Below are positions 11,482-26,536 of a DNA stretch of 64,000 bases, piece after piece. Origin of the DNA: Acidobacteria bacterium RIFCSPLOWO2_12_FULL_66_21 (GTDB lineage Bacteria; Acidobacteriota; Vicinamibacteria; Vicinamibacterales; 2-12-FULL-66-21); assembly GCA_001767455.1 (NCBI GenBank), contig MELC01000039.1, forward strand, positions 62,001 through 126,000, written 5' to 3'. The notes beneath the pieces are model-generated. The model had not been told where the DNA came from. It made no database searches and was given only the letters and a program-made list of their open reading frames with translations. Position numbers and translations under genes: made by a program. Every line of letters begins with the position of its first letter. The first letter of the stretch is position 1.

Positions 11482-13422
11482 ATGGCCGACGAGAAGCCGC
11501 CCAAACCGTCCGCCCGCACCCGCCGTCTTGGCGAACGCCGCATCCCTCCACGCGGCGGCCCGGGCTCGATGATGTGGGTGATCCTCGGCTTCCTGCTCCT
11601 CCTCGCGCTCGGGCAGGCGTTCTTCTACTCGATGCAGGGCGGCCAGACGATCTCCTACAGCGAGTTCAAGACGCTCGTACGCGAGCACAAGGTCGAAGAG
11701 GTTACGGTTGCGGACGATCGCGTCCGCGGCACGCTCAAGGGCGAGAACGGCGCGGCGGCCCGCCCGTTCACCGCGGTCAGGATCGAGGATCCCAAACTCG
11801 TCGAGGACCTCGAGCAGAACGGCGTCAAATCCACCGGCGAGGTCTCGAGCCGCTGGCTCGGCGAACTGCTCGGCTGGATCATCCCGCTGCTCTTCCTCGT
11901 CGCCCTCTGGGGGTTCTTCTTCCGCCGGATGGGAGGCGCCGAAGGCGGCGTGATGTCCTTCGCGCGCAGCAAGGCGAAGATCTACGCCGACGACGACGTG
12001 AAGGTGCGGTTCGGGGATGTCGCGGGCGTGGACGAGGCTGAGGACGAGCTGCGTGAGATCGTCGAGTTCCTGAAGAACCCGAAGAAGTACACGAGCATCG
12101 GCGGACGGATCCCGAAGGGCGTGCTGCTCGTCGGCCCGCCCGGAACCGGCAAGACGCTTCTCGCGCGGGCCGTCGCCGGAGAAGCCAAGGTCCCCTTCTT
12201 CAGCCTGAGCGGGTCGGAATTCGTCGAGATGTTCGTCGGCGTCGGCGCCGCGCGCGTGCGCGACCTGTTCGCGCAGGCGGTCGTGAAGGCGCCGTGCATC
12301 GTCTTCATCGACGAGCTCGACGCGCTCGGCAAGGCGCGCATCCAGTCGCCGATGGGCAGCCACGAAGAGCGCGAGCAGACGCTGAACCAGCTGCTGGCCG
12401 AGATGGACGGCTTCGACGCGCGCAAGGGGGTCATCATCATGGCGGCGACCAACCGCCCCGAGGTGCTCGACGCCGCCCTGCTCCGCCCCGGCCGGTTCGA
12501 TCGCCAGGTGCTCGTCGACAAGCCGGACGTGCGCGGGCGCGAGGAGATCCTGAAGATCCACGTGAAGACCGTGAAGCTGGCCGACGGCGTCGACCTCAAG
12601 GTGATTGCCGCGCGGACGGCCGGGTTCGCCGGCGCGGACCTCGCGAACCTGGTGAACGAGGCGGCGCTGCTCGCGGCGCGCAAGGACAAGACCGCGGTCG
12701 AGATGAAGGACTTCGAGGAGGCGATCGACCGGCTCATCGCGGGGCTCGAGAAGAAGCGCGTCATGAGCGACAAGGAGCGCCGCATCGTCGCGTACCACGA
12801 GTCCGGCCACGCGATCGTGGCGAGCGTGCTGCCGGGACTCGATCCCGTGCACAAGATCTCGATCGTGCAGCGCGGGTTCGGCGCGCTCGGCTACACGATG
12901 CAGCTCCCGCTCGAGGACAAGTACCTGCTGACGCGCGAGGATCTCGTGAGCCAGTTGTGCGTGCTGCTCGGCGGACGCACCGCGGAGGAGATCGCCTTCG
13001 GTCGCGTCTCGACGGGGGCGCAGAACGATCTCCAGCGCGCGACGGACATCGCGCGCGCGATGGTCACCGAGTTCGGGATGAGCGAGGAACTGGGACTCGT
13101 CAACTATGCCGGGCAGCAGCGGCCGACGTTCATCGATCCCGGGTTCCTGCCCCAGCGTGGGAACTACGCGGAAGAAACGGCGTTGAAGATCGACAACGAG
13201 GTCAAGCGCTTCATCACCGAGGCCCACGACGCGGCGCGCCGCGTGCTGGAGCAGTACCGCGACACGCTCGACCGGCTGTCCGAGCGGCTGCTCGAGAAGG
13301 AAGTGATCGAGTCCGAGGAGCTGAAGGCGATCATGGGCCCCCTCCCGCCGAAGGACTCCGACGCCATTCCGGTCGAAATTCCGCCCGTTGCGCCGCCGGC
13401 CGGGTCGAATTCGTCCCAGTAG
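11482..13422 (+). CDS. ftsH: ATP-dependent zinc metalloprotease FtsH
   Basis: Membrane-anchored AAA+ protease that degrades misfolded membrane proteins and unstable regulators. Two transmembrane helices (about residues 31-52 and 131-150) flank a small periplasmic domain. The AAA domain has GPPGTGKT near 217, Walker [14 protein letters not shown] and the second region of homology ending RPGRFDRQV. The zinc site is HESGH near residue 439. A TTG lies one codon upstream, but the ATG at 11482 is the natural start. The tail is Pro-rich ([12 protein letters not shown]). The gene lies 10 bases after clpB and probably shares its transcript. Length is normal. Confidence 0.96.
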
Positions 13423-13424
13423 CG

Positions 13425-13440
13425 CAGCCCCTCAGGGCTG
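13425..13440. terminator. CAGCCC/GGGCTG hairpin after ftsH
   Basis: CAGCCC (13425-13430), a CTCA loop and GGGCTG (13435-13440) form a short perfect hairpin two bases after the ftsH stop. No T-tract follows. The arms match the core word of the CAGCCCTAAAGGGCTG repeats at 25298 and 51594. It may mark the end of the heat-shock transcript. Confidence 0.35.
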
Positions 13441-13507
13441 CCGTGAGAGGATGAGGCTCGCCGGACGTTATCACCGGATGTAGAATCCCGCCGTCCAGGA
13501 GATTCCC

Positions 13508-15193
13508 ATGCGACTGCTGCTTGCGATCGCTCTCGGGGTTCCGTTGCTCCTGCCGGCGCCGGCTGCCGCGCAGAATCCCCGGGTGTTTGGCGCCCAGCAG
13601 CGCGCGCCCGCCCGCGATCCCTCGACTGAGAAGCCCGGCACGAGCGTCATCCGGGGAAAGGTCACGAGCGGCGACACTGCGCGGCCACTGCGGCGCGCGC
13701 AGATCCGCGTCATGGCGCCCGAGTTGACGGCGGCGCGAACCGCGAGCACGAACACGCAGGGCAACTACGAGATCCGCGATCTGCCGGCGGGCCGCTACAC
13801 CATTACGGTGACGCGCAGCGGGTATCTCCCCATGCAGTACGGGCAGCGCCGCCCCGGCGAGTCCGCGAAGCCCCTGCAAGTCATCGAGGCGCAGACAGTC
13901 GAACGCGTCGACTTCGTGATGCCGCGCGCCGGCGCCATCAGCGGGCGCGTCACGGACGAAACCGGCGAGGCGTTCGCCGCCGTGAACGTCTGGGCGCTTC
14001 AGGCGCAATACTTCCGGGGCCGCCGGCGACTCGTGCCCACCGGCCAGCAGGCGCGGACGGACGATACCGGCCAGTACAGGCTTCTTGCCGTGACTCCGGG
14101 CGACTACGTCATCATGGCGAGAATCCGGGAGACGTGGACGGTCGAGGGGGACGTGAAGGAAGTGTATTCGTACCTGCCGTCTTACTTCCCGGGCACCGGA
14201 AACGCCGCCGAGGCACAGCGCGTGAAAGTCGCGGTCGGCCAGGAAGTCGGCGGCATCGATTTCGCGATGCTGCCGGGACGCGTCGCCTCCGTCTCGGGCA
14301 CGGCCTTTCGCTCTGACGGCGCGCCCCTGTCGAGCGTGATGGTCATGGAGGAGATGACCGGCCGCACGATGATGTCCTCAAGCATGGTCGGCAGCGCCAA
14401 GGTCGGCGCCGACGGCGCGTGGACCCTGAAAGAGGTGCCACCGGGCGAGTACCGCCTTTCGGCCGAGGCGGGCGGCACGGGCGACCCCGGCCGTCCTGCC
14501 GAGAGCGCGACGACGACAATCTCGGTGACCGGGACGGACCTCGATGGAGTCTCGCTCGTGGCCGACGCGGGCGGCGTCATCGCAGGCCAGGTGGTGACCG
14601 ATGATGGAGGTGCGTTGCCGCCCGCGGTCCTGAAAACGCGGGTCTCGGCGCAGAGCCTGGGCGATGCAGGCGTGCGGTTCATGGGCGGCGGCGGGCAGAT
14701 TGACGCCGAGGGCAAGTTCGAGCTGACCGGCGTGCGCGGGCCGTCGCTGATCCGCCTGAACCCGCCGCAGGGCTGGGCCATCAAGAGCGTCGATATCGGC
14801 GGCCGTGATTACGTCGACGCGCCCTTCGAGGTGCGCGGCGGCCGGCGGATCGACGGCGCGAGAATCGTGCTCACCAGCAGGTTCCCCTCGCTCGCCGGCC
14901 GCATCGTCGATGCCCGCGCCAACGCCGCGGACGGCACCGTGATTCTCTTCCCGGCGGACGCGTCGAAGTGGATCGAGGACTCGGGCGCCGCGCGCGGCAG
15001 CCGTCCCGATCAGTCCGGCACGTTCAGGTTCCAGAGCGTGCGTCCCGGCGACTACCTGGTGATCGCGCTCGACTACGTCGAGTCGTGGCAGTGGAGCGAC
15101 CCGGAGTTCCTCGAGAGCCTGCGCGATCGCGCCACGAGGCTGACGCTCGGCGAGGGAGAGATCGAAGCGGTCACGCTCACGCTGAAGAAATGA
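13508..15193 (+). CDS. Secreted five-domain carboxypeptidase-regulatory-like protein (paralogue B)
   Basis: First gene of a tandem array; function unknown, predicted secreted or periplasmic. The start follows a strong AGGAG (13496-13500). The signal peptide is MRLLLAIALGVPLLLPAPAA, ending near AAAQ. Five beta-sandwich modules follow: VIRGKVTSGDTARPLRRAQI (about 38-130), AISGRVTDETGEAFAAVNV (about 137-235), VSGTAFRSDGAPLSSVMV (about 258-345), IAGQVVTDDGGALPPAV (about 357-455) and LAGRIVDARANAADGTVIL (about 462-561). The first module carries DLPAGRYTITVTRSGYLPMQ then YGQRRPGE, nearly invariant across the array. The end carries the family signature SRPDQSGTFRFQSVRPGDYL then WSDPEFLESLRDRAT. No protease, adhesin or barrel domain is recognisable. 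The stop overlaps the next start as ATGA. Confidence 0.87.
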   Translation: MRLLLAIALGVPLLLPAPAAAQNPRVFGAQQRAPARDPSTEKPGTSVIRGKVTSGDTARPLRRAQIRVMAPELTAARTASTNTQGNYEIRDLPAGRYTITVTRSGYLPMQYGQRRPGESAKPLQVIEAQTVERVDFVMPRAGAISGRVTDETGEAFAAVNVWALQAQYFRGRRRLVPTGQQARTDDTGQYRLLAVTPGDYVIMARIRETWTVEGDVKEVYSYLPSYFPGTGNAAEAQRVKVAVGQEVGGIDFAMLPGRVASVSGTAFRSDGAPLSSVMVMEEMTGRTMMSSSMVGSAKVGADGAWTLKEVPPGEYRLSAEAGGTGDPGRPAESATTTISVTGTDLDGVSLVADAGGVIAGQVVTDDGGALPPAVLKTRVSAQSLGDAGVRFMGGGGQIDAEGKFELTGVRGPSLIRLNPPQGWAIKSVDIGGRDYVDAPFEVRGGRRIDGARIVLTSRFPSLAGRIVDARANAADGTVILFPADASKWIEDSGAARGSRPDQSGTFRFQSVRPGDYLVIALDYVESWQWSDPEFLESLRDRATRLTLGEGEIEAVTLTLKK

Positions 15194-16827
15194 GGCAAGG
15201 GCTGACGCTCGCCGTCGCGCTTCTGCTTGCGTTGCCGCCTCTCGCGGCGCAGGCGCCGCAGGCCCCCGCGCCGCCGGGCGCGCCGGCCGGCGCGACGGTG
15301 CGAGGGCGCGTGACCGATGGCGCCACCGGTCGACCGCTGCGGATGGCCCGGGTAGCGCTGACGTCCGTGACCCCCGGGCCGAACGCACTTGAACGATTCA
15401 CGCGCACGGGGCCCGACGGCACGTTCCAATTCAAAGACGTTCCCGCCGCGCGCGTGACGGTCACCGCGTCGAAACCGCGGTACATCACCCTCCAGTACCA
15501 GCAGAAGCTTCCCGAGAAGGCCGGCAGGCCGCTCGACATTGCCGCGGGCCGGACCGTCGACGCGATCGATTTCGTGCTGCTGCGGGCGGCCGCCATCACC
15601 GGCCGCGTGCTTGACGAGCTCGGCGAGCCCGTCAGCAATGCCTGGGTGTCGGCCATGAAGACGGGGTACGACGAACGTGGTCGCGCGCTCGTCTCCGCCG
15701 GCGGCGCCACCACGAACGACCTTGGGGACTATCGCATCAGCCAGTTGCCTCCCGGTGATTACTACGTCGTCGCAGCCGAGCGGCTGGACGGCTTTGGCTC
15801 GGAGATGGATGCGGACATCGGCTTCGTGAAGACGGCATATCCTTCGACCGCCGACCTCAAGGACGCACGCGGCGTGGCCGTTCGCGCGGGGCTGGACACG
15901 GCCGGGATCGACATCGCCCTGCTGCCCGCGCATGCGGCGCGGGTCGCCGGCACCGTCCTTTCCGGCGACGGGCAACCCGCGGCGAACGTCTGGCTCGTGC
16001 TCCAGGCGATTGGGAACGGTCCCGGCGCGGGCATCGGCGCCGACACGTACTCGGGCGCTGACGGCGGTTTCCTGTTGCCTCGCGTGGCGCCGGGCCGATA
16101 CGAGCTGCACGCCCGCATGAACAGCAAGCCCAACGAAGGCGCCGTCGTGCCGCTCGACGTCAGCGGCGACGAGATCACGGGATTGATCGTGCCAATCACC
16201 CGCGGCGGCCGCATGGTTGGACGCGTCGTGCCTCCCGCGGGTGTGCCGCCCGCGCGGGCCGCGGATGCCAAGATCAACGCGGTACCTGTCGGCGACACGC
16301 TCATATTCGGCACGGGCTTCGGCGGCGTCGTGAAGGACGACTGGACGTTCGACTGGGATTTCCTCCTCGGCCCTCGCATCATCCGGCCACAGTCGCTGCC
16401 GCGCGGCTGGTATTTGAAAGCCGTCAGGCGCGGTGAAGAAGACGTCACCGACACGCCGATCGTGTTCCGAGCCGCGGAGGTCGTCCGCGATCTCGAGATC
16501 GTGTTGACGACGGATGACACGACGGTGGATGGATCGGCGGTCACGCGTGACAACAAGCCGGCGGAGCGCTACACAGTCATTGTCTTCCCTGAAGACACCA
16601 GCCTCTGGACGAGCTGGTCGCGATTCGTGAAGACTGCGCGGCCCGATCAGACCGGACGGTTCAGCATCGAAGGTCTGCCGCCGGCGAGATATCGGATCGC
16701 GGCGCTCGCCGAGATCGAGGAGAACCAGTGGAACGACCCGGAGTTCCTTGAACGCCTGCGTTCAACCGCGTCATCCATGACACTCGAGGTGGGGCAGCAC
16801 GTCTCCCTCGTCCTGCACGTGCGATGA
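15190..16827 (+). CDS. Secreted five-domain carboxypeptidase-regulatory-like protein (paralogue C)
   Basis: Second gene of the array, 545 residues from the ATG at 15190, which overlaps the previous stop by four bases; the frame is open far upstream, but that part is antisense-like noise over paralogue B. The signal peptide MRQGLTLAVALLLALPPLAA ends before QAPQAP, followed by a Pro/Ala linker. It is the most diverged copy of the array: YGQRRPGEP is replaced by YQQKLPEKAGRPL, the GRRRLVP motif by ERGRALV, and the PGT/AEAQRVKV segment by PSTADLKDARGVAV. The C-terminal signature is kept (TARPDQTGRFSIEGLPPARY, then WNDPEFLERLRSTAS). Translation is probably coupled on both sides. Confidence 0.86.
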   Translation: MRQGLTLAVALLLALPPLAAQAPQAPAPPGAPAGATVRGRVTDGATGRPLRMARVALTSVTPGPNALERFTRTGPDGTFQFKDVPAARVTVTASKPRYITLQYQQKLPEKAGRPLDIAAGRTVDAIDFVLLRAAAITGRVLDELGEPVSNAWVSAMKTGYDERGRALVSAGGATTNDLGDYRISQLPPGDYYVVAAERLDGFGSEMDADIGFVKTAYPSTADLKDARGVAVRAGLDTAGIDIALLPAHAARVAGTVLSGDGQPAANVWLVLQAIGNGPGAGIGADTYSGADGGFLLPRVAPGRYELHARMNSKPNEGAVVPLDVSGDEITGLIVPITRGGRMVGRVVPPAGVPPARAADAKINAVPVGDTLIFGTGFGGVVKDDWTFDWDFLLGPRIIRPQSLPRGWYLKAVRRGEEDVTDTPIVFRAAEVVRDLEIVLTTDDTTVDGSAVTRDNKPAERYTVIVFPEDTSLWTSWSRFVKTARPDQTGRFSIEGLPPARYRIAALAEIEENQWNDPEFLERLRSTASSMTLEVGQHVSLVLHVR

Positions 16828-18443
16828 TGACCTCCTGCCTCTTGCTTCTGTGCGCGCTCGTCGGGGACCCGCAGCAGCCTGCGCGTGACATCCAGCGCAG
16901 GCCGGCCGTCGCCTCCGGCACGATCTCCGGCACGGTGTACGCAGACGACGGGAAGACGCCGCTCAAGCGGTCGATCGTCCGCGCGTCGGCGGCCGAGCTT
17001 TCTCGGCGACGGACCGTGCGTACCGACATCGAAGGCAAGTTCCGGCTCGCGGATCTTCCCGCCGGCCGCTACACGATCACCGCGAGCAACGCGCAGTATC
17101 TGACGCTCGACTACGGTCAACGCCGGCCGTTCGAGCCAGGGCGCCGCATCGAGCTCGCGGCGGGCGAAACGCTCGCCCGGGTCGACGTGCTGCTGCCGCG
17201 CGCGGCCGCAATCGGCGGCGTCATTCTCGATGACGAGAACGAGCCGGTGAGCCAGATGTGGGTGGTCGCGGCACGATACGCCTTTCGGAACGGCCAGCGG
17301 CGGCTCGTCAGCGTCGCGCGCGGCGTGACGAACGACATCGGCGAGTTCCGGCTCGCCGGACTGGCGCCTGGCGACTATTACGTAATGGCGAGGGAGCGCG
17401 ACATCCGCGTGCGCGCGTTCAGCGACGAACCGTCCGGCTACGGGACGACCTACTACCCAGGGACAACTCAATTTGCGGAAGCGCAAGCAATCCGGGTCAC
17501 GCTGGGACAAGAGATCGTCAATACCTCGCTGCCCGTTATGCCCAGCAGGACGGCGCAGGTGTCGGGCCGCGTGGTCGACGAGACCGGCGCACCGCTCGCT
17601 GTGCGCGTCAGCCTGAATGACGGTCCGGGCACTCCGTTGTTCGGAGGAATCATTGGCGGTGCCGTGGCCAACGCCGACGGCCGGTTCTCCGTCGCCGGCG
17701 TCAGGCCGGGCAACTACGATCTGCTGGCGCGCAGTGAGTCAGGCGCCGACGGATCCGTGTCGATCGAGGTCCGCGACGCCGACCTGACGGGCCTGACGTT
17801 GGTGGTCGGCAGGGGTGCGACGGCAAGTGGGCGCGTCATTTCCGCGTCGGGCACTCCCTTGCCGGTCTCTGTGGATCTGCGCGCAGTCGGTCCGGGCACC
17901 GGCCAGCAGTCGCCCACGGCGCGATTGAGACCCGACGGCTCATTCGAGCTGGGTGCGCTCATCGGGTCGCGCGTGTGGCGCACGCCCAGCATCGCGTCCG
18001 GCTGGTGGCTGAAGGCGGTGATGCTGGGCGACACGGACCTCACGGATCAGCCGATGACGTTCACGCGCGGCCAGCGCGTCACCGGACTCACCGTCGTCGT
18101 CGACGACAAGCCGACAGAGATATCGGGAGAGGTGCACGACGAGGCGGGCCACGCGATTGGCGACTACACGGCGATTGTCTTCTCCGAGGACGCGAGCCGC
18201 TGGAGTCCTGAAACCCGGTTCGTGCGCGCCGACCGGCCGGATCATCGCGGTCTGTTCCGCGTTGCCGGCCTGCCGCCCGGCAAGTACCTCGTTGCCGCTC
18301 TCGATTACGTCGAGGAGGGCCAGTGGCAGGACACGGCCTTTCTCGAGCGTCTGCGGCGTGTCGCGACCAGGGTGACGCTGGAAGCGGCGCAGAAGACAAC
18401 CATCCAGCTTTCCCTTGCGTCCTTAGCCGAGAGAGAGCCCTAG
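16824..18443 (+). CDS. Secreted five-domain carboxypeptidase-regulatory-like protein (paralogue D)
   Basis: Third gene of the array, 539 residues, starting ATGATG with an ATGA overlap on paralogue C. The N-terminus MMTSCLLLLCALVGDPQQPA is short and lacks basic residues, so export is less certain; Cys10 in LLLLC could be a weak lipobox. The first module reads GTISGTVYADDGKTPLKRSI and keeps DLPAGRYTITASNAQYLTLD then YGQRRPFEPG. The second module keeps NGQRRLVSVARGVTNDIGEF then LAGLAPGDYYVMA. It ends with ADRPDHRGLFRVAGLPPGKY and WQDTAFLERLRRVATRVTL, with DTA replacing the usual DPE. The C-terminus carries an extra LASLAEREP tail. Confidence 0.86.
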   Translation: MMTSCLLLLCALVGDPQQPARDIQRRPAVASGTISGTVYADDGKTPLKRSIVRASAAELSRRRTVRTDIEGKFRLADLPAGRYTITASNAQYLTLDYGQRRPFEPGRRIELAAGETLARVDVLLPRAAAIGGVILDDENEPVSQMWVVAARYAFRNGQRRLVSVARGVTNDIGEFRLAGLAPGDYYVMARERDIRVRAFSDEPSGYGTTYYPGTTQFAEAQAIRVTLGQEIVNTSLPVMPSRTAQVSGRVVDETGAPLAVRVSLNDGPGTPLFGGIIGGAVANADGRFSVAGVRPGNYDLLARSESGADGSVSIEVRDADLTGLTLVVGRGATASGRVISASGTPLPVSVDLRAVGPGTGQQSPTARLRPDGSFELGALIGSRVWRTPSIASGWWLKAVMLGDTDLTDQPMTFTRGQRVTGLTVVVDDKPTEISGEVHDEAGHAIGDYTAIVFSEDASRWSPETRFVRADRPDHRGLFRVAGLPPGKYLVAALDYVEEGQWQDTAFLERLRRVATRVTLEAAQKTTIQLSLASLAEREP

Positions 18444-18456
18444 CCCAGGGGCCGCC

Positions 18457-20142
18457 ATGCTGACGCCACTCTGCTTCGCGCTCGCGCTCCTCGCCGCGCA
18501 GGGGTCTCAGGCGACACAGACGCAAACAACCGGCGCGGCGCAATCGCCCGCGCGCGACACCGCGGCGGAGAAAAAAGGGACCGCCATCATCACGGGCCGC
18601 GTCGTCAATGCCGACGGCAGCAAACCATTACGGCGGGCGCAGGTCAGTCTGTCGTCCACGGCGTTGTCCGAGCCACGCAGTGTCAGCACCACGACAGCCG
18701 GAGCCTTCGAGTTCAAGGAACTGCCAGCCGGACGGTACACGGTGACGGCGAGCCGCAGCGGATTCCTCCGGCTCCAGTACGGACAGCGCAGGCCGGGTGA
18801 GCCCGGACGGCCGATTCAGGTCGCGGACGGACAGACCATCGATCGCGTCGAGTTCGCGCTGCCGCGCATGTCCGTCATCACCGGCCACGTGACCGACGAA
18901 GTCGGGGACCCCCTCGCGGGCGTGAGCATCTTTCTCATGCAGGTGAAGTACTTCAGGGGCAAGCGCCGGCTGGTACCCACCTCAGGCGCGGCCTCTACCG
19001 ACGACACCGGTCAATTCAGGCTAATCGGACTGCAGCCCGGCGACTACTACGTCATGGGCACCACTCGCGAGACCTGGACCGTTGAAGGCGATGACACGCA
19101 GCGGACCGGATTCGCTCCCACGTACTATCCGGGAACGCCCGTTCCGGCCGAGGCGCAGCGCGTCAAACTCGGCGTGGGTCAGGAATTGGCGGGGATCGAC
19201 CTTTCTCTGGTGCCCGGACGCGTCGCGACGATTTCGGGCACGGTGATCAGCCAGAACGGCTTGCCCATGACAGGCGAATCGGTATCCGTCACGCAGGAAT
19301 TCGCGGGCCCCGGCAACATGTCGTCGTATGGATTCGGCGGCGGGACGATCAAAGCGGATGGGTCGTTCACGATCAGGAACATCGCGCCCGGCGAATACAA
19401 ACTGTCGGTCCGGCTTGCCGGCGACAAAGACCGCCGGACAGAGATGGCGGAGGCTGTCGTGACGGTGACTGGCGCAGATATCGATGGCGTGTCGCTCGTG
19501 GCCGGATCGGGGGGATTTCTTTCCGGCAAAGTCATCACTGACGACGGCACGCCGCTGACCTCGACCCCACGGATGCGCGTGTCCACACGGTCTGTCGACT
19601 CCAGCGCCGGCAGCGGAAGGTACGATCAGGAGAACGGGCGGGTCCGCGACGACATGACCTTCGAGGTGAGTGAAGTGTTCGGTCGTCAACAGATATCGAT
19701 CGGGCCCCTGCCGTCCGGGTGGGCGGTCAAATCCATCGATCACGAGGGTCATGACTACGCCGATCTGCCGGTCGAGATCGGCAACAGTCAACGGATGGAC
19801 GGGTTGACGATCGTGCTGACGAAGACGCTCCCGGGGGTTCGCGGCACACTGCTCGACGAGAAGGGACAACCGGCCCAGGGACTGGTGATCCTGTTTCCTG
19901 CCGATCCCGCGCTCTGGGTCGAAGGCTCCCGCCTCATACGGACCATCCGTCCGACCCACGCCGGCGCGTTCCAACTGGCAATGCTGCCCGAGGGTGAATA
20001 TCTGGTGGCCGCCCGCGACTTCATCGAGGAGGGATCGTGGAACGATCCCGAGGTGCTCAAAGAGCTCGTCGAGACGGCGACGAAGGTGACGCTGCGGCAG
20101 GGGCAGGGTGCCGCGGCGGTGTCGCTGACGCTGCGGAAGTGA
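18457..20142 (+). CDS. Secreted five-domain carboxypeptidase-regulatory-like protein (paralogue E)
   Basis: Fourth gene of the array, 561 residues, 13 bases after paralogue D. The signal-like start MLTPLCFALALLAAQGSQAT shares its first nine residues with the next gene, which points to recent duplication. Modules are as in the rest of the family: GRVVNADGSKPLRRAQVSL; VTDEVGDPLAGVSIFLMQ then RGKRRLVP; the segment YYPGTPVPAEAQRVKLGVGQ then GIDLSLVPGRVATISG; ITDDGTPLTSTP; and the C-terminal IRPTHAGAFQLAMLPEGEYL then WNDPEVLKELVETATKVTL. RPDQ of the signature is RPTH here. No enzymatic motif is seen. Confidence 0.87.
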   Translation: MLTPLCFALALLAAQGSQATQTQTTGAAQSPARDTAAEKKGTAIITGRVVNADGSKPLRRAQVSLSSTALSEPRSVSTTTAGAFEFKELPAGRYTVTASRSGFLRLQYGQRRPGEPGRPIQVADGQTIDRVEFALPRMSVITGHVTDEVGDPLAGVSIFLMQVKYFRGKRRLVPTSGAASTDDTGQFRLIGLQPGDYYVMGTTRETWTVEGDDTQRTGFAPTYYPGTPVPAEAQRVKLGVGQELAGIDLSLVPGRVATISGTVISQNGLPMTGESVSVTQEFAGPGNMSSYGFGGGTIKADGSFTIRNIAPGEYKLSVRLAGDKDRRTEMAEAVVTVTGADIDGVSLVAGSGGFLSGKVITDDGTPLTSTPRMRVSTRSVDSSAGSGRYDQENGRVRDDMTFEVSEVFGRQQISIGPLPSGWAVKSIDHEGHDYADLPVEIGNSQRMDGLTIVLTKTLPGVRGTLLDEKGQPAQGLVILFPADPALWVEGSRLIRTIRPTHAGAFQLAMLPEGEYLVAARDFIEEGSWNDPEVLKELVETATKVTLRQGQGAAAVSLTLRK

Positions 20143-20154
20143 GGTCAAACAATC

Positions 20155-23100
20155 ATGCTCACGCCTCTCTGCTTCGCGCTCATGCTCCTCACCGCGCAGG
20201 GCTCTCCGCCCGCGCAAGCGCAGAGGCCCGGCCAGCCGCAACCTCCTTCGCCCAACGCGAGCACTGACGTCAAGGGCACGGCCCTCATCAAAGGGCGCGT
20301 CGTCAGCGCCGTCACCGGCAAGCCGCTCCGGCGCGCGCAGATTCGTCTCTCGGCCCCAGAACTGGGGCAGCCGCGTACAACAAGCACGGACATCGATGGT
20401 GAGTACGAGCTCGCCGAGGTCCCTGCGGGACGATACACGGTCAGCGTCACGCGCAGCGGATACATCACGCTCCAATACGGACAGCGGCGTTCGAACGAGC
20501 CCGGGAAACCGCTGGAGATTTCCGACGCCGAGAGGCTCGACAAGATCGACTTCTCGCTTCAGCGCGCCGGCGTGATTACCGGCCGGGTCACCGACGAGAC
20601 CGGCGACACCGTCGCGGGCGCCACCGTCTGGGCGATGCAGCCGCAGTTCTTCCAGGGGCGCCGCCGGCTGGTGCCCATCAGTCCGCCGACGCACGCCGAC
20701 GACGTGGGACAGTTCCGCCTGCTGGGACTGCCCCCTGGCGAATACGTGGTCATGGCCACGCTGCGCGAGACGTGGACGATTGACGGACCCGACAAACAGA
20801 AACAGACTCTGGGGTACACGCCGTCATACTTTCCCGGAACCGCGAACGCCGCGGAGGCGCAGCGCGTCAAGGTCGGCCTCTCCCAACAGGTCGGCCCGAT
20901 TGAATTCGGCCTCGTGCCGATCAAGACAGCCAACGTGTCAGGAACGGCTGTGGGGTCCGACGGACTCCCGCTCGCCGGCAGCACCGTGATGTTGTCGCAG
21001 GAAGTCATGGGACCCGGCGGCGGGATTATGAGCATGGCCGGAAACTCGCGCGTCGCGCCGGACGGGACCTGGACGCTGCGCAACGTTCCCGGCGGTGAGT
21101 ATCAGCTGCAGGTCGCCAGCGTGGACCGCGAGCGGCCCGGCGAGATGGCGTCGCTGACGCTCCAGGTCCAGGGAGTCGATCTCGAGGGAGTGGCGCTCGT
21201 CGCCGACGGCGGCGGCACGCTTGCCGGTCAGGTCGTGACCGACGATGGCAGTCCGCTACCCGAAGCGGCTTCGCCGATCCGCGTGTACGCGCGGCGGATC
21301 GCTTCGGGCATGTCGAGCGGCTCCCGGAGAGGACCCGAGAACAATGGTGTCATCGCCGCGGATGGCCGCTTCACGCTGGAGGCCGTGGCGGGCGGATCGC
21401 TGATTCGCCTGCTGGGGCTGCCGGCCGGATGGGCGCTGAAGGCGATCGAGATCAGCGGCCGCGACTACGCGGACGGGCCGCTGGAGCTCCGCGGCGGGCA
21501 GCGGACCACCGGCGCGCGCCTCATCATCAGCAGAAGCCTGCCATCCATATCGGGACACATTACCGATGAGAAGGACGCTGGCGTCGATGCCTCGGTACTG
21601 CTGTTTGCCGCCGACGCCTCGAAATGGACTGAGGGATCGGGCGCGCTGCGCACCGCGCGTCCGGGAAAGTCGGGCCTGTTCCGCTTCGACGCGGTTCGTC
21701 CGGGCGATTACCTGGTCGTCGCCGTCGAGAACATCGAGCAATGGCAGGCGAACGATCCGGAGTTCCTGGAAGAGTTACGCGACCGCGCCACAAAGGTCAC
21801 GGTTGACACGGGGAGATCCGAAGTCGTGACGCTGAGAGTCAAACGGCAACTCCCGGCCCCCAACTCCCAACCCCCACGTTTGGGAATCGGGCGTTGGGAA
21901 TTGGGAGTTGTGAGCCTCGTTCTCCTTGCGAGCCCGCAGGTGTCGGTCCAGCCCCAGCAGCCGCAACGTCCGAGGCGTGACATCGTCGCACCGCAGAAAG
22001 GCACGGCCATCCTCCGGGGGCACGTGGTTGCGGCGGATACCGAGCGGCCGCTGCGGCGCGTCCGCGTGCGCATTTCGGCGCCCGAATTGTCCGAGCCGAA
22101 GACCGCGAGCACCAACCTGGAAGGCGCCTACGAAGTTCGGGACCTGCCCGCCGGACGCTACACGATCCAGGTGAGCCGCGGCGGATACCTTCCGCTCCAG
22201 TACGGACAGCGGCGCCCCGGCGAGCCGGGGAAGCCCTTGCAGCTCGCCGACGGGGAGACGGTTGACGCGATCGATTTCCGTCTGCCGCGCGCGGGTGCGA
22301 TCACCGGCCAGATCCTCGACGAGACGGGCGAACCGGTCTCCGGTGTCACCGTCGCTGCGATGCAGGTGCAGTTCTTTCGCGGGCGCCGGCGGCTCGTACC
22401 GGTTTCGGACATTACGAACACGGACGACACCGGTCAGTACCGTGTCGGCGCGCTCTCGCCCGGTGATTACGTGATCATGGCGCTCTTTCGCGAATCGTGG
22501 GTCAGCAAGGATCGCGACAGGCAGGTGCTGGGATACGCCACCACATACTTCCCGGGCACCGCGAGCGCGGCCGAGGCGCAGCGCGTCAAGGTCGCGGTCG
22601 GACAGGAGGTGGCCGCGATCGACTTCGCTCTCGTTCCGGGGCGAGCGGCAACCGTCTCAGGCACCGCGCTTCGCTCCGACGGCGCACCGCTCGCCGGCGC
22701 CACCGTCAGTCTGGATCAATACATCAGAGGGCCAGTCTCCAGCATGGCGAGCAGCGTCAGCGGGACCAAGGTGGCCGCGGATGGGTCGTGGACCATTCGC
22801 AACGTTCCTCCAGGCGAATATGAACTGGAGGCCACCGCGACCGATCGGGAGCGCGGAACGGAACGCGCAACAACGATCCTGTTCATGCAGGGCACGGATG
22901 TGGAAGGCATCACGCTGACGACGGGCGCGGCCGGCACATTGTCGGGGCACGTTGTGACCGACGACGGACAGCCGCTCCCCACGTCCGTCACGCGGCTGCG
23001 CGTCGTGCCGGATCCGATCACGCCCGACCGGCAGGCGCCGATGATCGTCATGGGTGACGACAACGGGCTGGTGGGAGCCGATGGGGCTTTCACGTTCAAA

Positions 23101-23565
23101 GGCCTTCTCGGCCCGTCGATCCTGCGCGTCTGGCTGCCAGCGGGATGGGCGGTCAAGAGCATCGAGATCGGCGGGACGGATTACGCCCAGACGCCGCTGG
23201 ATGTCCGCGGAGGACAGCACGTAGCCGGCGCACGCATCGTGATCACGAAGCGCTTTCCCACGATCGCGGGACGCATCACCGACGACAAGGGGAAGCCGGC
23301 GAATGGGACCGTGCTGCTGTTCCCGAGCGATGCATCGAAGTGGTTCACGGCCGCCGACACCCTGCGTTCCGCGCGTCCCGACCAGTCAGGCAACTTCCGC
23401 CTCGAGACGGTCCGGCCAGGCCAGTATCTCGCCATCGCGCTGGACTACGTGCAGACGTGGCAGTTGAACGATCCCGAGTTCCTGGAAGAGCTGCGCGACC
23501 GCGCGACAAAGCTCACGGTTGCTGAGGAATCGATCGGAGAGTTGAATCTCACGGTGAAGAAGTAA
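20155..23565 (+). CDS. Double-length secreted protein: two array modules fused by stop-codon loss (paralogues F1+F2)
   Basis: One open frame of 1136 residues made of two complete paralogues. F1 (residues 1-564) starts MLTPLCFALMLLTAQGSPPA and ends DPEFLEELRDRATKVTVD then VVTLRVKR, where its relatives have a stop. The next codon is CAA (21847-21849), one transition from TAA. It is followed by a 63-base intergenic-type repeat with no stop in this frame, translated QLPAPNSQPPRLGIGRWELGV. F2 then begins at a former start region: GTG 21910, giving VSLVLLASPQVSVQPQQPQR, a hydrophobic remnant of a signal peptide. F2 has five modules and ends DPEFLEELRDRATKLTVAEE then LNLTVKK. A second ribosome entry at 21910 is possible (GGGAG only two bases before it). 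If read through, F2's hydrophobic segment would sit mid-protein. Confidence 0.85.
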   Translation: MLTPLCFALMLLTAQGSPPAQAQRPGQPQPPSPNASTDVKGTALIKGRVVSAVTGKPLRRAQIRLSAPELGQPRTTSTDIDGEYELAEVPAGRYTVSVTRSGYITLQYGQRRSNEPGKPLEISDAERLDKIDFSLQRAGVITGRVTDETGDTVAGATVWAMQPQFFQGRRRLVPISPPTHADDVGQFRLLGLPPGEYVVMATLRETWTIDGPDKQKQTLGYTPSYFPGTANAAEAQRVKVGLSQQVGPIEFGLVPIKTANVSGTAVGSDGLPLAGSTVMLSQEVMGPGGGIMSMAGNSRVAPDGTWTLRNVPGGEYQLQVASVDRERPGEMASLTLQVQGVDLEGVALVADGGGTLAGQVVTDDGSPLPEAASPIRVYARRIASGMSSGSRRGPENNGVIAADGRFTLEAVAGGSLIRLLGLPAGWALKAIEISGRDYADGPLELRGGQRTTGARLIISRSLPSISGHITDEKDAGVDASVLLFAADASKWTEGSGALRTARPGKSGLFRFDAVRPGDYLVVAVENIEQWQANDPEFLEELRDRATKVTVDTGRSEVVTLRVKRQLPAPNSQPPRLGIGRWELGVVSLVLLASPQVSVQPQQPQRPRRDIVAPQKGTAILRGHVVAADTERPLRRVRVRISAPELSEPKTASTNLEGAYEVRDLPAGRYTIQVSRGGYLPLQYGQRRPGEPGKPLQLADGETVDAIDFRLPRAGAITGQILDETGEPVSGVTVAAMQVQFFRGRRRLVPVSDITNTDDTGQYRVGALSPGDYVIMALFRESWVSKDRDRQVLGYATTYFPGTASAAEAQRVKVAVGQEVAAIDFALVPGRAATVSGTALRSDGAPLAGATVSLDQYIRGPVSSMASSVSGTKVAADGSWTIRNVPPGEYELEATATDRERGTERATTILFMQGTDVEGITLTTGAAGTLSGHVVTDDGQPLPTSVTRLRVVPDPITPDRQAPMIVMGDDNGLVGADGAFTFKGLLGPSILRVWLPAGWAVKSIEIGGTDYAQTPLDVRGGQHVAGARIVITKRFPTIAGRITDDKGKPANGTVLLFPSDASKWFTAADTLRSARPDQSGNFRLETVRPGQYLAIALDYVQTWQLNDPEFLEELRDRATKLTVAEESIGELNLTVKK
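21847..21910. repeat. CAACTCCC/GGGAGTTG inverted repeat inside a coding frame
   Basis: CAACTCCCGGCCCCCAACTC on the left and GGCGTTGGGAATTGGGAGTT on the right form an imperfect hairpin of the same word family found between genes at 23566, 31208 and 50508. Here it lies exactly at the junction of two paralogous modules and is read in frame. It marks a former intergenic gap that became coding. Confidence 0.85.
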
Positions 23566-23644
23566 ACTCCCAACTCCCAACGCCCAACTTCCAACCTCAA
23601 AGGTCCATTCGTCGGAAGGTTGGGCGTTGGTAGTTGGGAGTTGA
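23566..23644. repeat. CAACTCCC/GGGAGTTG inverted repeat between convergent genes
   Basis: The left arm is CAACTCCCAACGCCCAACTT then CCAACCT; the right arm is AGGTTGGGCGTTGGTAGTTG then GGAGTTG. Together they give a stem of about 27 bp between the array and rho, which converge here. It overlaps the likely 3' ends of both transcripts and could act as a bidirectional terminator or RNA-end stabiliser; there is no T-tract. Confidence 0.75.
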
Positions 23645-23648
23645 TCCC

Positions 23649-25112
<1,464 letters not shown>

Positions 25113-25297
25113 GAGACTACTGGCGCTGTCGGTCAATCAAGAGGTTGTAGGTTGTCTGGCAGTGTCGACTTTATTGCTGGCGGGGCGGGAAGAATGAGGC
25201 GGCCGGCGCGAGCCCCGCGGGACAGAGGAAATCAGGAAATCGCTGATGTTGTGTTCGTACTCCGGGAAGTATAGGCACCGGCCGGGACCGTGTCAAG

Positions 25298-25403
25298 GCA
25301 GCCCTAAAGGGCTGCGCAACACGCGAGGCAGCCCTAACCAGCCTTCGCCAAGGCTACGGCGGTCCGCCGAAGCGCTTCGCGCGAAGGCGGAAGGGCTGCG
25401 CAA
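25298..25403. repeat. CAGCCCTAAAGGGCTGCGCAACA repeat cluster
   Basis: The 269-base gap between rho and the radical SAM gene contains no gene. It holds GCAGCCCTAAAGGGCTGCGC at 25299-25318, a second GCAGCCCTAA at 25328, a palindrome-rich centre (GGCGGTCCGCC, GCGCTTCGCGC) and a closing AGGGCTGCGCAACA. The same core flanks the gap before RNase J at 51594-51660. The rest of the gap (25137-25297) shows nothing recognisable beyond presumably the rho promoter. Confidence 0.75.
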
Positions 25404-25405
25404 CA

Positions 25406-26536
25406 TTACACCAGGCGAAACCGCCGGGTGCCCGGGAGGAACGGGGTCGCGGCCACCTGGCCGTCGAAGGCGCGTCCCCAGCGGCCCGGGATGACGGTGG
25501 CGCACTGAGGGCAGGTGCCCTCCGGCGTCAGCCGGTACTCCTGGATGAAGTACCCGTATCGCTCGACGAGGAGCGCGCCGCAGTTGTGGCACCGCGTGTT
25601 TTCCAGATCCCCCACGCGTCCCGGCAGGTTGCCCGCGTAAACGTAGCGCAGCCCGTTGCGCTTGGCCGTGTCAGCCGCGCGCATGAGCATCTCCGGCGTC
25701 GTGTTTTCCGGATCGTTCATCCGGTAGTCCTTGTGGAACGCCGTCACATGCCACGGAATATCGGGCGAGACGCCTGCGATGAAGCTGGTGAGCCCTTCTA
25801 TCTCGTCCTGCGAATCGTTGAAGCCCGGAATGAGCAGCGTGACGATCTCGAGCCAGATGCCCATCTCGTGCAGCGTGCGGATCGTGTACAGAATGGGCTC
25901 GAGCCGGCCGCCCAGCTCGCGGTAATGGCGGTCGGCGAAACTCTTGAGGTCCACCTTGTACAGATCCACCCACGGCCGGATGTAGTCCAGGACGCGCGGC
26001 GTGCCGTTCCCGTTCGACACGTACGCGGTCATCAGCCCCGCGGCTTTGGCCTCCCTGAAAATCGCGACCGCCCACTCGCTCGTGATGAGCGGCTCGTTGT
26101 AGGTGCTGACGACCACACGCGAGTTCAAGCGCTTCGCTTCGGCGACGATGGCGTCAGGATCGGCATCGAGCGGCGGAGAGATCGCCTCCGGATCCCGCAG
26201 CGCCTGCGAGGTGACCCAGTTCTGGCAGTACGAGCAGTGCAGGTCGCATCCCAGCATCCCGAAGCTGAACGCGAGCGCGCCCGGGCGCGCGTGGAAGAAC
26301 GGCTTCTTCTCGATCGGGTCGCACTGCACGCCGCCCACGTACCCAAAGGGCACGCGCAGCACGCCGCCGCGGTTGAACCGGACCTTGCACACGCCGACGG
26401 CGCCGTCGGGGATCGGACATTCGTGGCCGCACGCGTAGCAGCGGATGCGCTCCTTCGAGATGTGTTCGACCAACTCAGGAGCGGCCTCGGCTGTTCTCTC
26501 CTCGAGGACCTCAGCCAGCGTCGCCATACAGACCAT
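25406..26536 (-). CDS. AmmeMemoRadiSam-type radical SAM enzyme
   Basis: Radical S-adenosylmethionine protein related to pyruvate-formate-lyase activases, 376 residues from the ATG at 26536 (a second ATG lies three codons later). The 4Fe-4S site is CDLHCSYC (Cys97, 101, 104). An N-terminal Cys cluster CYACGHECPIPDGAVGVC (33-50) and a C-terminal zinc-ribbon-like pair CHNC and CPQC (about 326-353) flank the barrel. STYNEPLI and YVSNGNGT are typical barrel motifs of this subfamily. Members are usually encoded with AMMECR1 and Memo proteins, forming a trio of unknown function; neither partner is in this window. The frame upstream of 26536 only translates intergenic repeat. Confidence 0.88.
   Translation of the reverse strand: MVCMATLAEVLEERTAEAAPELVEHISKERIRCYACGHECPIPDGAVGVCKVRFNRGGVLRVPFGYVGGVQCDPIEKKPFFHARPGALAFSFGMLGCDLHCSYCQNWVTSQALRDPEAISPPLDADPDAIVAEAKRLNSRVVVSTYNEPLITSEWAVAIFREAKAAGLMTAYVSNGNGTPRVLDYIRPWVDLYKVDLKSFADRHYRELGGRLEPILYTIRTLHEMGIWLEIVTLLIPGFNDSQDEIEGLTSFIAGVSPDIPWHVTAFHKDYRMNDPENTTPEMLMRAADTAKRNGLRYVYAGNLPGRVGDLENTRCHNCGALLVERYGYFIQEYRLTPEGTCPQCATVIPGRWGRAFDGQVAATPFLPGTRRFRLV

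Follow-up and report, generated by a model that had tools for sequence, protein, structure and literature searches.

A stop-free heptad hairpin at the junction of two fused CarboxypepD_reg paralogues in an Acidobacteria genome

The window (the whole stretch analysed here, 64,000 nucleotides of contig MELC01000039.1 from Acidobacteria bacterium RIFCSPLOWO2_12_FULL_66_21) carries a tandem array (13508-23565) in which four paralogue genes are followed by F1 and F2, and then, on the opposite strand, by rho (Table 1). In agreement with the original prediction, open-frame reading and alignment with the sister proteins place F1 and F2 in one frame of 1136 residues, whose codon 565, aligned to the stop site of the sisters, is CAA. 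The sister proteins end at this position in ...LTLKK, ...LTLRK or ...LTVKK followed by a stop codon, and the fused ORF reads ...LRVKR-Q; the fused ORF is confirmed as real. All array paralogues and both halves of the ORF carry CarboxypepD_reg domains in Pfam, and the whole 1136-residue protein matches PF13620 in eight stretches with 234.7 bits (curated cut-off 32.3). Elsewhere in the genome, CarboxypepD_reg paralogues account for 68 matches. The F2 half ends in AAG TAA (23560-23565), followed directly 3' by ACTCCCAACTCCC, a further copy of the repeat found at the junction, as had been described beforehand.

Table 1. Features of the window, with positions counted from its first nucleotide.
Feature	Position	Strand	Basis
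Tandem paralogue P0004, closest to F2 (55%)	13508..15193	+	
Tandem paralogue P0005, start taken as ATG 15190	15190..16827	+	
Tandem paralogue P0003	16824..18443	+	
Tandem paralogue P0002	18457..20142	+	
Fused ORF, 1136 aa	20155..23565	+	Open-frame reading
F1, residues 1-564: signal peptide and CarboxypepD_reg / transthyretin-like beta-sandwich repeats	20155..21846	+	Pfam PF13620; predicted fold
CAA at the sister stop site, with which the repeat arm begins	21847..21849	+	
Heptad hairpin element, whose translation is the linker QLPAPNSQPPRLGIGRWELGVV	21847..21910	+	Folding; pLDDT
F2, about residues 586-1136: second CarboxypepD_reg array, preceded by a truncated signal-peptide-like start	21910..23565	+	
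Fused-gene stop TAA (23563-23565) and the following hairpin element copy, which it overlaps	23563..23642	+	
rho, synteny anchor	23649..25136	-	Named from sequence by the author; aligned to G010
Heptad element copy, single arm, 2 nt from stop codon	31241..31267	-	
Hairpin element copy between co-directional genes, 9 nt past stop codon	50513..50591	+	

The two halves are joined by a hairpin that contains no stop in the reading frame (CGG CAA CTC CCG GCC CCC AAC TCC CAA CCC CCA CGT TTG GGA ATC GGG CGT TGG GAA TTG GGA GTT GTG AGC). The original prediction had placed a stop-free hairpin of 63 bases after the CAA codon; the absence of stops stands, but the hairpin measures 64 nt, C21847 being paired with G21910, and hence CAA lies within the repeat. 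Folding of positions 21846-21911 gives -38.3 kcal/mol (z -2.8 against 200 shuffles). The hairpin was rejected as an intrinsic terminator, since no T run comes after it (the sequence from 21910 is GTGAGCCTCGTTC), and Rfam returned no match above gathering score within 13000-26000.

The AlphaFold2 model, computed from an alignment of 14 paralogues, shows two beta-rich halves of fair to good confidence (mean pLDDT 75.5). Residues 565-612 fall below pLDDT 50, beginning exactly at the lost stop, and are thus predicted to form a disordered linker between the two folded halves; together with the translation, this bears out the expectation of a flexible linker rich in Pro, Asn and Gly.

The arms of the element are tandem heptads, (AACTCCC)n...(GGGAGTT)n. 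Because seven is prime to three and the heptad is stop-free on both strands, all six frames stay open through perfect arms. A run of three units completes seven codons, so that a tandem array reads the same in each of the three frames: AACTCCC translates as NSQLPTP and GGGAGTT as GSWELGV. The common variants AACGCCC, AACTTCC, AATTCCC and AACCCCC are likewise stop-free in every phase on both strands and, among the single-change variants found, 104 are stop-free and 3 contain a stop. We set this avoidance of stops aside as evidence of selection, as 16 of the 21 single changes that are possible would leave the heptad without a stop in any case, and the variants spread as copies. Nor are stop-free heptads rare, making up 50% of all heptads and 73% when weighted by G+C. 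Any stop in an element has to arise from its edge or from a damaged unit, and a C at the edge, which most copies have, forms none there.

A search of the genome with AACTCCCAACTCCC (two heptads, at most one mismatch) gave 186 matches, and the reversed control pattern gave none, so the repeat occurs far more often than chance would allow. From regions fetched around the genome matches, at least 49 distinct copies of 21-126 bp were catalogued, 20 as hairpins and 29 as single arms, frequently in the context GTC/AACTCCC...GGGAGTT/GAC, where the slashes mark the element edges. With gene boundaries taken from a codon-usage gene finder written for this analysis, so that counts are approximate, most copies are intergenic, and in 23 of the 49 an end lies no more than 25 nt from a stop codon. 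The base immediately outside AACTCCC is C at 57 of 69 ends and T at 6 (P 3e-17 against a C frequency of 0.33). Two other copies have a TAA stop that overlaps the element edge: one at L089 (T/AACTCCC, -2 nt) and the one at the end of the fused gene (TA/AACTCCC, -1 nt). Across the class, the double heptad is present in 17 of 193 genomes. Two named genomes, both Acidobacteria assemblies, were found to have the hairpin form. Six IMG/VR viral contigs (L218-L223) contain at least three AACTCCC heptads, and one of these, L218, has only 33% G+C.

Translation of the element is not confined to the junction, 11 of the 49 copies lying wholly within ORFs, the fused gene included, and at least nine other, unrelated genes being involved; the original prediction had noticed neither this nor the genome-wide spread of the family. 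Internal copies occur in YbeY, a prolyl oligopeptidase, an acetolactate-synthase-like enzyme, a CocE-type hydrolase, a LarC-type nickel insertion protein and an alpha-L-fucosidase; the copy in an HI0933-like protein is N-terminal, and those in PurD, an M28 peptidase and a glycosyltransferase form C-terminal tails. Such C-terminal heptad tails are seen at L106, L112, L090 and L082. PurD (437 residues) has its tail beyond the homologous end, its homologues stopping at residue 423-428, and the C-terminus of the glycosyltransferase (L112 13700-15088) reads through both hairpin arms, like the fused gene, but with a stop soon after. Single arms predominate among the copies in genes, and in all nine single-arm copies within genes the sense strand is the C-rich strand (P 0.004). 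A heptad hairpin is also translated in frame within a penicillin amidase (L146:1465-1516) from a different family in the same order. The NSQLPTP insert is absent from the YbeY and prolyl oligopeptidase sites of relatives, the length of the YbeY loop varying across the class. This DVLSF...LGD loop (L111:2974-3001, L161-L186) is a hot spot of low-complexity inserts in the class, and its repeat-like peptides differ between genomes (for example RIPNP in L168 and ASAKASAGK in L184).

We propose, with a probability of about 0.68, that a copy of this genome-wide stop-free heptad hairpin filled the last gap of the array and covered the F1 stop, giving one exported two-module protein of 1136 residues. 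The copy would occupy the last gap of a six-paralogue CarboxypepD_reg array next to rho, its boundary C-AACTCCC would cover the F1 stop site, and translation would run through the repeat into F2. The predicted product is a single exported protein whose two beta-sandwich modules are joined by some 48 disordered residues. As C is the normal edge base of the family and pairs with G21910, the copy may itself have brought the CAA codon, and the stop may in this way have been overwritten by the repeat. The original prediction had instead attributed the fusion to a single TAA-to-CAA transition. An element lying between two genes, with an ancestral TAA at 21847 that one T-to-C change removed, would yield the same fused product and differ only in the manner of stop loss. 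Such an origin is conceivable given the two copies whose stop TAA overlaps the element edge, and the change would extend the hairpin by one C-G pair; with C the usual base at this edge, however, no substitution is needed, and we regard the transition as unlikely. Removal of the stop by the element, through insertion or homogenisation of its edge, thus seems the better account than a random transition.

Comparison with relatives sets the fusion in context. The rho gene is 89% identical to that of G010, where a single stand-alone paralogue with its own GTG start adjoins rho, against six tandem CarboxypepD_reg paralogues here. No relative exceeds 48% identity at the locus, and a GTDB scan with the protein gave no close relative; the ancestral state is therefore unseen. 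The units are of single length in relatives and share one frame here, which matches the pattern of fusion by stop loss. Long open frames in relatives were considered as further fusions and rejected, the candidates having no double paralogue frame. At L131, a TAG parts the two genes and a new signal peptide is present.

The start of F2 bears on whether one protein or two are made. The G010 orthologue, which is the stand-alone gene adjoining rho, starts VTSCLAVMLLVAQATSYQ, 27 residues ahead of a shared RD motif, whereas F2 read from GTG 21910 has about 22 residues before this motif and a weak hydrophobic core. Little of a normal signal peptide is left in F2, and the truncated, signal-peptide-like stretch at its start is in keeping with the predicted readthrough into a remnant signal peptide. 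A start at TTG 21880, within the repeat, gives MGIGRWELGVVSLVLLA, with a hydrophobic core of 2.96 against 2.6-3.3 in the sisters, as measured on the plain Kyte-Doolittle scale rather than with a signal-peptide predictor. Since this core is as hydrophobic as those of the sisters, it keeps alive the reading in which a base-call or assembly error conceals a TAA at 21847 and two proteins are made, F2 starting from TTG 21880 or GTG 21910 with the 3' arm of the repeat supplying the start of the signal peptide. The ORF does depend on the single base at 21847, in a 91-contig assembly and at the foot of a strong hairpin. Yet there is no independent sign of error, F2 has no well-placed Shine-Dalgarno sequence, and the in-frame translation of the repeat in at least nine other genes cannot all be due to errors. 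We consider such an error improbable; the base call at 21847 is presumably right and a single product is presumably made.

The truncation of the F2 signal peptide would also be expected at a decaying locus, where the fused ORF exists, its second half is unneeded and readthrough is neutral damage; the many paralogues in the genome could make F2 redundant. But F2 retains a full-length, stop-free frame with a GC3 of 0.81, close to the 0.82 of F1, its predicted fold is confident, and it keeps 55% identity to its closest paralogue, P0004, which makes decay quite improbable.

The heptad family combines traits of several known systems. The Rickettsia palindromic elements (RPE) are multicopy palindromes lying in frame within unrelated protein genes, to which they add a peptide insert (Ogata 2000, 2002, as reviewed in PMC10969869); each unit spans about 150 bp and contains an ORF that encodes a conserved peptide (PMC10969869). 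The heptad element is likewise a short multicopy palindrome found in frame in unrelated genes, but it is set apart by make-up and length: its tandem-heptad arms are open in all frames, it spans 21-126 bp, and single arms outnumber hairpins. Its heptad composition and its length speak against homology with a known RPE sequence. Heptameric G-rich repeats, GGGNATC or GGGGAYT, occur near stop codons in Xanthomonas and Nostoc (Rehm 2015, PMC4692102), and cyanobacterial STRR are hairpin-forming heptameric repeats (PMC2670836). The present family shares with both a 7-nt unit of GGGN4 type repeated a few times, a mostly intergenic location with fewer copies in genes, and frequent placement no further than 50 nt from a stop codon, which is sometimes overlapped; its copies are tandem arrays of 7-nt units, each with three or more consecutive Gs, and lie mostly between genes and near stops. 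It differs from them in its unit, GGGAGTT, in the often paired inverted arms with a C boundary, and in the consistent C-rich sense strand of its nine in-gene single arms.

As with QMITE2 at enhC of Coxiella, a MITE that gives a strain-variable C-terminal extension (PMC5896051), an element at a gene end here displaces the stop and lengthens the protein by a translated tail; unlike QMITE2, the heptad element is read on into an entire second gene, with no target-site duplication or transposase link in evidence. It also resembles REP/REPINs as a short extragenic palindrome between genes but, unlike them, is built from a tandem heptad and has no copies around Y1_Tnp (RAYT) genes: three such genes were found, with no heptad copy in the surrounding loci (about 3.3 kb each). 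A limited literature search turned up no paper describing the AACTCCC/GGGAGTT heptad, nor any on repeats of this kind in Acidobacteriota.

These observations describe a concrete route from intergenic repeat to protein, namely a stop-free unit, prime to three in length, that is readable in any frame. A single genome offers intergenic, stop-overlapping, C-terminal-tail and internal-linker copies as well as one gene-gene fusion, so that the steps of fusion can be directly compared, and gene calls in such assemblies hinge on the edges of the repeat. We tentatively raise, as a broader possibility, that Acidobacteriota-type genomes harbour a self-spreading heptad hairpin family, open in six frames by construction, which can enter genes, stops and operon gaps whatever the frame or orientation. 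If this is true, such a family would add linkers and tails to proteins and, as here, fuse whole genes.
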